Virus record (IMG/VR): IMGVR_UViG_3300035670_013267
Location: 1 to 38,904 of that record
Reading direction: 5' to 3' (one strand)
Length of the DNA stretch: 38,904 nucleotides
DNA from: a virus
The position numbers and the translations under genes were made by a program. Shown here piece after piece: positions 3,254-23,155 of the stretch (position 1 is its first letter; every line of letters starts with the position of its first letter). Below the pieces are notes generated by a model. That model was not told where the DNA came from. It did not search any database and saw only the letters and a program-made list of their open reading frames with translations.

Positions 3254-3570
3254 TACGCTTCACCTACCTTTTCAAATGTAAAAAATGGTAATGCATCCAA
3301 TTTTGCTTTATCCGTTTTAGACATTAAACCGTCTTTTTCAGCAGTGGCATTGCCAGGAAGTGTTGGAATGATAGTTGTGTCAGGCAACGCTCTTACGTCA
3401 GTAGCACTTAATGTAACTTCACCTGTGTGACCATTTACAGACGAAACAGTGCCCGCTCCAGCACCACTGATTTTTCCATCAATAAATTCATTTAGACCCG
3501 CAACACCTTCTGTACTAGTTTGTACATCAATGGCTACGCCATCCTTTTTTATTACATATAATTCAGCCAT
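3253..3570 (-). CDS. Short fibre/baseplate module with VNGHTG motif (copy 2)
   Basis: 105 aa. The start MAELYVIKKDGVAIDVQTSTEGV is an attachment segment like that of the next gene; residues ~43-60 carry SSVNGHTGEVTLSATDV, a motif common in phage fibre collars; residues ~70-90 have the GLMSKTDKAKLDAL pattern found in trimeric fibre proteins. The gene ends at TAATG with the next one and overlaps the previous one by 8 bases, so three fibre genes are tightly coupled. Likely a structural spacer of the baseplate or fibre. Confidence 0.65.
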   Translation of the reverse strand: MAELYVIKKDGVAIDVQTSTEGVAGLNEFIDGKISGAGAGTVSSVNGHTGEVTLSATDVRALPDTTIIPTLPGNATAEKDGLMSKTDKAKLDALPFFTFEKVGEA

Positions 3571-21200: not shown

Positions 21201-21513
21201 AGTTTTTCTCCTTCAATGTGGCGCCATTTTTAGAATACCAATTCACTGTGTCTTTCAGATTAGGCAACGTATGAGACAACAGTGTAATTGTCAAGATTGA
21301 TTGATTAGAAGATAAGTCGTTTATGATATTCACATGACAATAATTTCCACTCCACACGGGTTTTACTTCTTCTTTGACTACTTTACCTTCACCATTTCGT
21401 AAATTATTCTTTACCCAATAGCGACTATGTTCTCTTTCAATTGCTTTCTTATAAACATCGGCCAATACACTAGGAACTCTAAGTTCCAATATAGCTTCAT
21501 TAAAGTCATTCAT
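21193..21513 (-). CDS. Hypothetical protein
   Basis: 106 aa (MNDFNEAILELRVPSVLADVYKKAIEREHSRYWVKNN... LKEKNYE). Mixed alpha/beta, no motif recognised. It overlaps both neighbours by 8 bases, so the small genes of this cassette are translationally coupled. Confidence 0.65.
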   Translation of the reverse strand: MNDFNEAILELRVPSVLADVYKKAIEREHSRYWVKNNLRNGEGKVVKEEVKPVWSGNYCHVNIINDLSSNQSILTITLLSHTLPNLKDTVNWYSKNGATLKEKNYE

Positions 21514-21742
21514 GATAACTCCCTCTCCTTATATTCTCTTGTACATGCTTGTCATTCCAACATCCATGCCCACAATACACCAACTTACAATAGTCGATTT
21601 CTTGTGGTGTAGCTTCTCGTGTCATTTCAATAATTGAAACATTCTTCCTTATCTGTACAGACATTACAACACGTACTGCATCTACTGAGCGCTTCGGCTG
21701 TGGATATTTATGTGTTAACGATACATACCAATAGTTTTTCAT
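21506..21742 (-). CDS. Hypothetical protein with Cys/His cluster; first gene of the late operon
   Basis: 78 aa (MKNYWYVSLTHKYPQPKRSVDAVRVVM...). The C-terminal EIDYCKLVYCGHGCWNDKHVQENI holds Cys, Cys, His, Cys, His within 20 residues, compatible with metal binding, though not a standard zinc finger. It has AGGAGAG before the ATG. It is the first sizeable gene after the long structured leader. Confidence 0.65.
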   Translation of the reverse strand: MKNYWYVSLTHKYPQPKRSVDAVRVVMSVQIRKNVSIIEMTREATPQEIDYCKLVYCGHGCWNDKHVQENIRRGSYHE

Positions 21743-21753
21743 ATTTTTCTCTC

Positions 21754-21807
21754 CTAGTTATTTTTCTGTTCTTGATTCAGCAAATTATTTTTTGATATAC
21801 TATTCAT
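21754..21807 (-). CDS. Possible 17-aa leader peptide
   Basis: ATG at 21807 is preceded by AAAAAGGAG at nine bases; the frame reads MNSISKNNLLNQEQKNN and stops at TAG, 11 bases before the next gene. Its ribosome-binding site is inside a helix AGGTAGCA/TGCTACCT (21808-21815 with 21858-21865) and is complementary to the loop of the predicted + strand RNA at 21808-21898. It might be a translated leader that controls the downstream gene. Too short for coding evidence. Confidence 0.35.
   Translation of the reverse strand: MNSISKNNLLNQEQKNN
21772..21801 (+). promoter_or_regulatory. Promoter of the antisense RNA
   Basis: TTGATT (21772-21777), 18-bp spacer, TATACT (21796-21801); start expected near 21808, exactly at the first base of the AGGTAGCA helix. 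Confidence 0.6.
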
Positions 21808-21898
21808 AGGTAGCAACTCCTTTTTGTAAATAGCAATCAACAAAAATTGTGCACGAATGCTACCTAGCCACTAGATCCCATAGTCTAGTGGTTTTTTT
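21808..21898 (+). ncRNA. Predicted antisense small RNA opposite the late-operon leader
   Basis: A + strand unit with promoter (21772-21801), about 91 nt of RNA and terminator (21868-21898). The RNA begins AGGTAGCA, which pairs with TGCTACCT at 21858-21865; the 42-nt loop contains ACTCCTTTTTG, complementary to the AAAAAGGAG ribosome-binding site on the opposite strand. It would therefore be a cis-antisense regulator of the leader peptide or of the late transcript. No protein frame is convincing. Confidence 0.6.
21868..21898 (+). terminator. Terminator of the antisense RNA
   Basis: CCACTAGA / TCTAGTGG, a perfect 8-bp stem with 8-nt loop, followed on the + strand by seven T. On the - strand it is preceded, not followed, by the A/T run, so it points to + strand transcription. 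Confidence 0.8.
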
Positions 21899-21996
21899 GT
21901 ATGTAGAAAAGAGACACCCTGTAGCGGATGCCTCTCGTGAAGGGTAGAAACATCTATTGACGTTTCCTAATTTATTTAAGCAGCGAAAGCTACTTA

Positions 21997-22070
21997 TTGA
22001 CGTGACAGGAGTCGAACCTGCATGTACTTGATTAAAAATCAACCGCTCTCACCAATTGAGCTACACGCCA
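21997..22070 (-). tRNA. tRNA-Lys (anticodon UUU), phage-borne
   Basis: Cloverleaf on the - strand: acceptor TGGCGTG/CACGTCA (one G-U), D stem GCTC/GAGC, anticodon loop TTTTTAA with anticodon TTT, T arm GCAGG-TTCGACT-CCTGT, discriminator A, no CCA. The anticodon stem has a G-G mismatch at 27-43, and U1-A72 is unusual, so it is divergent but complete. It lies inside the structured leader RNA and is bracketed by the 11-bp helix 22156-22166/21982-21992. Confidence 0.85.
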
Positions 22071-22190
22071 TACCAGAAGGAGCTACCTTCTAGCAATTGC
22101 TAATAAATCAAATTAACCTTTACACACTCTCGTCAGAATGTTTTCCCATCAGGACGTAGCTTTCGCAGACTTTCACGGCTAAAATGATTA

Positions 22191-22242
22191 TGTCACTGGC
22201 AAGGATTTGCACCTTGTATGGTCTATATTCCACCACAGTGAC
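22191..22242 (-). other. Mini tRNA-like element lacking an anticodon arm
   Basis: Acceptor-like stem GTCACTG/CAGTGAC (7 bp) plus A, a D-arm-like stretch TGTGGTGGAAT..AGACC resembling tRNA-Leu, and a T-arm CAAGG-TGCAAAT-CCTTG. The whole is 52 nt; the anticodon and variable arms are missing and one extra C lies between T arm and acceptor. It may be a tRNA-Leu remnant or a tRNA mimic inside the large RNA. Confidence 0.5.
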
Positions 22243-22612
22243 CAATCAATCAAACACCAGCAAAAACAATTGATTAAGTTTATCCTAAACGTACCTAGCT
22301 GCTACTCTATGAGTTTAGGAATTGCTCTCGTGCGTAAGCAGCTGCCGCAGAGATCTGGTTAATGTTCTTATCGTCATATGCTGGGATAGAGCAATATACC
22401 TAACCTCGACTAGTATGAATCAGGTAGTTACTACTGCATCCCTAGCAACTATTTGTGTCACTTGCAAACCTGTAGAAAAAAGAGGAGGTTATTCACCTCA
22501 CTTCATTTTATTGAGAACGTAAGTCTGCAAGTGACTATCGAAAGGCAAAGCAAACGGTAGACTAAACCAGAAAGTGTGTAATGTGTCCATTTCTTTGACT
22601 TTCGATACTACC

Positions 22613-22667
22613 ATAATACAACGGATTTCGAGTTAAAAACCCTAAATAATCCCTAAAAAAACCCTAA
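22613..22667 (-). promoter_or_regulatory. Late promoter with three phased TTAGGG activator repeats
   Basis: On the - strand TATTAT (22618-22613) serves as -10, with start near 22607. There is no good -35. Instead TTAGGG occurs three times, at 22667-22662, 22656-22651 and 22645-22640, exactly 11 bp apart (same face of the helix), the nearest overlapping the -35 position. The first repeat overlaps the arpU stop region. This is the layout of an activator-dependent promoter; ArpU, encoded just upstream, is the obvious activator. Confidence 0.65.
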
Positions 22668-23155
22668 TTTTTTTGAACTATCAAATTTTCGTAATGATAG
22701 GCTTCCGCAAATTCAATCAATGCATTGTCTTTTAGCTTCTCAATATTTTTAATGCTGTAGCTTATTTCTTCCACTTGGCCAAACTCGTTTTCACGATATA
22801 CTTTTATTGTTCTGCTCAGCTTAGCCATGCTGTATGGATTCGGTACACAATAGGAATAGTATAATATCTCTCTTGAGACGTCAGGCAACAATTTTAACGT
22901 GTGTTCTATCGCTCTGACTTGCTCCCTACGTTGTCTAGCTGCCTCTATCGATAATTTAGATGTGTTTCTAAATAAATGAACCATACTTTCCTCAGCATTA
23001 TTTCTGTTACTATGATGTCGTGGCATATCAGATAATATAGGAGATTGCAAATGTACTTTTACACCACTCATTCGTTGTAGGCTTCGACAGCTTTTTAATA
23101 ATCTACGAACTTTATCTTTTGTTTTTTTGTAATCTATTTCTGGTACCAACGTCAT
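22664..23155 (-). CDS. arpU: ArpU-family late transcriptional regulator
   Basis: 163 aa (MTLVPEIDYKKTKDKVRRLLKSCRSLQRM...). ArpU proteins resemble sigma factors in their C-terminal part: here KLLPDVSREILYYSYCVPNPYSMAKLSRTIKVYRENEFGQ... SIKNIEKLKDNALIEFAEAY, a helix-turn-helix of the sigma region 4 kind. They switch on packaging and lysis genes and lie at the end of the early operon in enterococcal and lactobacillal phages. A GGGGGGAG site precedes the ATG. The late promoter begins inside its last codons. Confidence 0.88.
   Translation of the reverse strand: MTLVPEIDYKKTKDKVRRLLKSCRSLQRMSGVKVHLQSPILSDMPRHHSNRNNAEESMVHLFRNTSKLSIEAARQRREQVRAIEHTLKLLPDVSREILYYSYCVPNPYSMAKLSRTIKVYRENEFGQVEEISYSIKNIEKLKDNALIEFAEAYHYENLIVQKN

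Follow-up and report, generated by a model that had tools for sequence, protein, structure and literature searches.

The window, a stretch of 38,904 nucleotides covering positions 1 to 38,904 of the viral record IMGVR_UViG_3300035670_013267, carries on its − strand a gene for an ArpU-type late transcription activator and, downstream of it, an interval rich in RNA structure with which the late operon opens. A sequence-only reading had found no protein gene between arpU and the first late gene and had taken this interval for a structured non-coding leader with an embedded tRNA. Both claims were upheld: the − strand of 21810–22607 is non-coding, contains a tRNA-Lys and has a folding energy of −258 kcal/mol, compared with −205 ± 9 for 20 dinucleotide shuffles (z = −5.84). 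The features are listed below in the direction of transcription.

22664–23155, − strand: ArpU-type late transcription activator (phrog_248, transcriptional activator, E 1.7e-26)
22640–22668, − strand: probable ArpU operator, three 11-bp-spaced repeats ATTAGGG, TTTAGGG and TTTAGGG, with a putative function suggested by sequence
22613–22618, − strand: −10 element TATTAT of the late promoter, recognised by sequence, its position conserved in relatives
22455–22607, − strand: module A, a two-domain structured 5′ leader, defined by a motif common to the collected relatives
22243–22454, − strand: module B, a swappable 212-nt module, which relatives either have or lack as a whole
22192–22242, − strand: reduced tRNA-Leu-like element (TLS) with a 7-bp acceptor GUCACUG/CAGUGAC, a T stem and the T loop UGCAAAU
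22071–22191, − strand: pre-tRNA leader with the hairpin GAAGG-UAGCU-CCUUC adjoining the tRNA, read from the sequence and its relatives
21997–22070, − strand: tRNA-Lys (UUU), 62.7 bits
21978–21995, − strand: post-tRNA hairpin AAGUAGC-UUUC-GCUGCUU, 7 bp, kept in 35 of 35 relatives scored
21907–21936, − strand: candidate intrinsic terminator of the leader, GAGAGGCAUCC..GGGUGUCUC UUUU, recognised by eye

The predicted late start site, at which the RNA had been said to begin, agrees with the sequence as read: position 22607 lies about 6–7 nt past the TATTAT −10 element and downstream of the operator repeats. The sigma-70 scan did not flag TATTAT at 22618–22613. In relatives, the operator site is occupied by TTGGCGG repeats or by TATACACTT-type repeats. 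At least three sequence types of operator repeat (TTTAGGG, TTGGCGG and TATACACTT) occur across 22640–22668 and the equivalent positions in loci L005, L010 and L023, and these types probably match different ArpU types.

Relatives of the leader were collected by a distant search of phage genomes (22 records, mostly E. faecalis phages) and by scanning viral contigs with the motif of module A (45 stretches). The aligned leaders have a constant start followed by exchangeable cassettes. The first ~150 nt from the start site, corresponding to module A, are common to the relatives, a constancy that is partly by construction, as the relatives were collected partly via its motif. Module A is followed by module B, a TLS and a tRNA (Lys, Glu or Arg), by a tRNA-Asn directly, or by a small ORF, and then by a tail and a terminator. 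The size of the leader ranges from module A plus tRNA-Asn up to modules A and B with 200-nt inserts and a tRNA. The earlier view of a single ornate RNA of ~800 nt does not survive this comparison, since the relatives retain module A and exchange the remainder; the 800-nt length is therefore one assembly among many. Judging from the compared sequences, 21810–22607 is a modular non-coding leader of the ArpU-controlled late operon, not one giant RNA of the ROOL/GOLLD type. Transcription from ~22607 would first yield the 5′ structure of module A and then the cassettes (module B, TLS and tRNA), together with local processing hairpins and the terminator.

All the helices proposed earlier were recovered by exact search, with the correction that the 3′ strand of an 11-bp stem around the tRNA lies at 21993–21983, one base off the position first given. 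In module A, P1 pairs 22607–22593 with 22550–22536 (15 bp, one mismatch) and P2 pairs 22535–22526 with 22466–22457 (10 bp), the two domains abutting. Both helices hardly vary within E. faecalis. They are also retained in a divergent copy, A′ (L023, L054, L171 and L380), where compensatory double changes number five in P1 and two in P2, and where a third domain, of 12 bp, is added. On this comparison module A is a real RNA structure, with P1 and P2 supported by covariation. Of the other helices, the 11-bp stem and an 8-bp helix of module B (22395–22388/22328–22321) are not upheld. In L023 (12024–12246) and L054 (4082–4305), a second, divergent late promoter with A′ was observed several hundred bases behind the first, with another operator type (TATACACTT/TATACCT). 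A plasmid search with module A returned one weak match only.

A terminator-like hairpin with a U run is located inside P2 (22499–22485). This hairpin and the terminators that trail the cassettes in relatives make a putative attenuator or antiterminator role for module A reasonable. The put RNA of phage HK022 opens its operon transcript directly with two neighbouring stem-loops; module A likewise begins its transcript with two stem-loops, although its domains are larger and the likeness is an analogy only. Transcription control could accordingly be the main function of the whole leader, with module A, its constant first 150 nt of two abutting stem-loop domains, serving as a promoter-proximal attenuator or a put-like antiterminator that gates polymerase past the leader terminators into terS. 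We consider this account possible but doubtful, as it leaves module B and the TLS family unexplained.

The reading that we regard as probable is that of a modular leader with exchangeable cassettes, in which a payload-less TLS represents a widespread phage family and host tRNA enzymes would excise an effector-displaying RNA. Among the cassettes of the window, module B contains three helices found by exact search, of 8 bp (22395–22388/22328–22321), 7 bp (22343–22337/22303–22297) and 8 bp (22320–22313/22290–22283), the last two of which cross to form a pseudoknot, as well as a hairpin (22275–22269/22250–22244). In several relatives one strand of the first helix is disrupted, and the other two are uninformative because they are near-invariant. 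The tRNA slot holds Glu, Arg, Asn, Gln or Trp instead of Lys in relatives; such swaps of tRNA identity at the same place among close relatives are as expected from an arms race with anticodon nucleases. The pre-tRNA hairpin GAAGG-UAGCU-CCUUC is compensated in the E. hirae phage EH-TP1. The 11-bp stem that had been drawn around tRNA-Lys (22166–22156/21993–21983) was scored in 35 relatives; its 5′ strand was absent in 15 and 7 of the 11 pairs formed in 12. It is excluded, because the local post-tRNA hairpin forms in all 35. The candidate terminator at 21907–21936 was not flagged by the terminator scan, and other relatives have clear terminators at the equivalent position. On the + strand, a strong terminator-like hairpin (AGCCACTAGATCCCATAGTCTAGTGGTT TTTTT) was observed at 21866–21893, where no + strand gene was seen to end.

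The sequence-only reading overlooked that part of the "ornate" sequence is a TLS that probably belongs to a large phage RNA family. The window copy reads GTCACTG-TG-GTGGAATATAGACC-ATACAAGG-TGCAAAT-CCTTG-C-CAGTGAC. Its acceptor and T arm are present, with an A-C at the sixth T-stem pair; it has neither an insert nor an anticodon arm, and its D arm is an altered remnant. Full TLS members occupy the same site in other phages, and in phage VEsP-1, L026 and L060 inserts of 157–200 nt are found at the same point, flanked by a proper D arm of the tRNA-Leu type on one side and by the T arm on the other. Against a covariance model whose training set left out the enterococcal 51-nt type, the window copy scored 24.1 bits (E 9.6e-6 in 1.5 kb), the 5′ acceptor being aligned poorly and placed upstream. 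From its sequence, the element is best called a reduced, payload-less relative of the TLS family. Given the altered D arm, the missing insert and the poorly aligned 5′ acceptor, it may be a decaying remnant without function here.

Searches of Enterococcaceae genomes and viral contigs with short patterns yielded 135 distinct TLS elements in phages of Bacillota, ranging from 51 to 248 nt (median 101). They share the frame N7 UG GCGGAAUAGGUAGACGC (insert) GNNNGG UGCAAAU CCNNNC N7′, which comprises a 7-bp acceptor, a tRNA-Leu-type D arm and a 6-bp T stem, and a variable insert of about 23–195 nt takes the place of the anticodon arm. The acceptor and T stem stack as 13 pairs (7 + 6), compared with 12 in tRNA. 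Because the first detection demanded pairing, the acceptor was re-tested at sites picked by their D-arm and T-loop letters alone. The 93 sites included 54 distinct 5′ acceptors, 35 of which paired at 7 of 7 positions, compared with a mean of 1.4 and a maximum of 5 for shuffled 3′ strands; several of the remainder were mis-anchored T arms. In an alignment of 35 members, which had been selected for pairing, all 16 pairs held (560 of 560 cells). Changes on both sides affected 136 cells, compared with 32.6 after shuffling, and 10 pairs, and the covariation score was 0.694 versus 0.177 for shuffled sequences and at most 0.133 with partners slid by one base. Since the aligned members were selected for pairing, the sample of 54 acceptors is the real test. 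A DNA-level palindrome or insertion site behind the paired acceptors was rejected, as the arms are exactly 7 nt long and outward extension is at chance level. The D and T loops also covary, UAGG occurring with U-G loops in a ratio of 65:3 and AGGG with U-U loops in a ratio of 36:0 among members that are not phylogenetically independent. At the level of sequence, this is as expected for a tRNA elbow.

Many TLS sites lie at the heads of late operons or in tRNA arrays. Of 34 sites in Enterococcaceae genomes, 15 follow a same-strand ArpU gene at a distance of 208–1070 nt, and among other loci sampled the nearest upstream gene encodes a late transcription activator (phrog_36, 248 or 2198) in 7 of 18. 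Other members stand within tRNA arrays, as in the 14-tRNA array of L431, where the spacers on either side are 3 and 2 nt; this tight packing argues for tRNA-type processing. Named carriers include SPP1 (in the gap between genes 9 and 11), Listeria phages B054 and PSA, Enterococcus phage EFDG1, the SPbeta relative phi3T, Lactobacillus 8014-B2, Lenus (between two tRNA-Arg genes), Leuconostoc LN34, Weissella WC29P3 and Lacticaseibacillus R29.1. No RNA is annotated at the TLS sites in the named phage records examined. Near the TLS of L076 (617–930) and L094 (1373–1690), a RatA-like antitoxin RNA and an rli28-like RNA (both by Rfam) were observed on opposite strands, a possible type I toxin-antitoxin pair within the late leader.

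Grouping the 129 inserts by sequence gave 73 clusters. Of 64 clusters, 26 have a closing helix of at least 6 bp with its 3′ strand stopping exactly 2 nt short of the T stem (2.5 on average in shuffles, maximum 6), and 21 have a pseudoknot of at least 11 pairs (shuffles: 2.7, maximum 6). Overall, the inserts have only a moderate folding advantage over shuffles (mean z about −0.95), so that some may be junk carried by the frame. Like inserts are found under different acceptors (L369/L371, L379/L406 and L388/L026), which, together with the position-specific closing helix and the pseudoknots above shuffle level, argues that the inserts are not free to drift. The same insert is also present in the unrelated phages VEsP-1 (siphophage-like) and EFDG1 (a myophage). 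The inserts of L407 and L412 include a hairpin resembling a T arm (GG.TTCGATTCC), which may be a tRNA-like unit nested within the TLS. L264 has two TLS in tandem (116 and 161 nt, about 90 nt apart) whose inserts are unrelated, and tandem pairs are also suggested in L152, L155, L172 and L175.

In the proposed mechanism, RNase P and a 3′ nuclease of the host would cut the TLS from long phage transcripts, giving a presumably stable, tRNA-shaped small RNA unable to decode. The frame would protect and display the insert, which would be the effector part, and the insert might evolve and move fast because its targets differ, be they host or rival-phage factors or perhaps tRNA-directed defences. As a tentative generalisation, a little less likely than not, Bacillota phages may carry a large and so far undescribed class of tRNA-like RNAs that lack an anticodon. 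Their scaffold, matured by host tRNA enzymes, would display hypervariable, often pseudoknotted effectors and would typically be deployed as late transcription begins.

The strongest rival takes the TLS as processing punctuation only, a cleavage signal that defines the ends of flanking tRNAs or mRNAs via RNase P and tRNA 3′ nucleases, with the inserts as filler. The frame is indeed conserved while inserts are unrelated among clusters, TLS lie between regulator and structural genes and among tRNAs, and insert-less members exist. Punctuation alone does not explain ordered inserts, that is, the closing helix at a fixed position, the pseudoknots and the recurrence of like inserts under different acceptors, and we consider it rather unlikely.

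The likeness to tRNA-Leu (class II, RF00005) extends over the 7-bp acceptor, the UG linker, the D arm GCGGAA..GG.AGACGC and the D-loop/T-loop elbow. The TLS differ in the 6-bp T stem (35 of 35 aligned members, compared with the canonical 5 bp), the mostly UGCAAAU T loop (G55), the variable insert, the CCA, which is never encoded, and the anticodon arm, which is absent in 81 of 83. A standard anticodon arm (5 bp, 7-nt loop, U33) was found in 2 of 83 inserts versus 10 of 11 true tRNA-Leu controls. Charging is uncertain, given that CCA is unencoded and that 27 of 43 acceptors have A at N73. A TLS could nevertheless act as a decoy or non-ribosomal substrate, mimicking a charged or chargeable tRNA-Leu and occupying tRNA-binding proteins such as synthetases, modification enzymes or defence enzymes. 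The tRNA-Leu-type D arm and elbow and the frequency of A at N73 agree with such a role, bacterial LeuRS does not read the anticodon, and true tRNAs of changing identity stand alongside, as in anti-nuclease tRNA sets. This explanation appears unlikely, in that acceptors and N73 vary freely, CCA is unencoded, and aminoacylated elongator tRNAs differ in both the stack (13 bp here) and the T loop (G55 here).

The clearly tRNA-Leu-like D arm, the cross-match of the covariance model R1 to true tRNA-Leu (40–48 bits) and the reduced window copy might also point to an ordinary tRNA array in decay, with the TLS as tRNA-Leu pseudogenes or intron-bearing tRNAs. This is very improbable: 43 different acceptor sequences among the 135 members are perfectly paired and the T stems have 6 bp, which is not decay, the anticodon arm is absent in nearly all members, and the inserts match no Rfam intron family. 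A group I intron in tRNA-Leu was likewise rejected for the 157–200-nt inserts, which have no Rfam intron match and no exon anticodon halves. As R1 picks up true tRNA-Leu, its phylum-wide count was not used, and the model gives no reading of prevalence in bacterial genomes.

To our knowledge, few RNAs have the shape of a tRNA but no anticodon; these are tmRNA, Y RNAs and the ends of plant viruses. tmRNA (RF00023) shares a tRNA-like domain that lacks an anticodon and is closed by a longer, pseudoknotted RNA; the TLS are much shorter, have a tRNA-Leu-type D arm with a paired D stem, and no shared tag frame was noticed. Identity with tmRNA was rejected, there being no Rfam match and none called in the first 16 loci. 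YrlA, the bacterial Y RNA (RF02553), is also a bacterial RNA with a tRNA-mimic module but differs in the sequences and order of its arms, and its sole match was an 18.8-bit chance match to the true tRNA of the leader (gathering threshold 69). tRNA-Sec (RF01852) has a 13-bp acceptor/T stack of 8 + 5, in contrast to the 7 + 6 stack of the TLS, which have no anticodon arm and reach 25.8 bits at best (gathering threshold 47). Against the Rfam tRNA model, the best TLS among seven loci scored 26 bits, below the gathering threshold of 29. No Rfam family corresponds to the TLS and no account of it was found in the open-access papers searched, studies of E. faecalis RNA included; the family is apparently undescribed.

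GOLLD (RF02032) and ROOL (RF03087) are likewise phage-borne structured RNAs near tRNAs, and GOLLD linkers may contain tRNAs (PMC12286853). The suggestion of a single ROOL- or GOLLD-like ornate RNA assembling into cages, to which the size, the module B pseudoknot, the phage location and the internal tRNA had lent colour, is largely refuted and now scarcely tenable, since modules appear and vanish as blocks, the 11-bp long-range stem is not conserved and the Rfam 15 models for these RNAs gave no match at the gathering threshold or at E ≤ 10. At the gathering threshold, the tRNA was the sole Rfam 15 match in the leader. At E ≤ 10, 21500–22700 gave chance-level matches only, and none of these concerned ROOL or GOLLD. 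Neither RNA was matched in sequence or structure at any threshold tried, and Rfam scans of the relatives returned neither.

If the proposed reading is true, the tRNA frame would serve phages as a general vehicle for variable RNA domains, and the TLS family would account for many of the "empty" regions close to late regulators and tRNA arrays. In the laboratory phage SPP1, the TLS occupies the hitherto unexplained gap between genes 9 and 11. It lies at about 3423–3531 of X89721.1, with the acceptor AACACGG..CCGUGUU. The same gap (X89721.1; L453 1391–1775) contains, besides the TLS, a second tRNA-like hairpin, ACGGAC..CGGGTTCAATTCCCG..GTCCGT TTTTT, and further structure, and as a whole it looks like a non-coding RNA.
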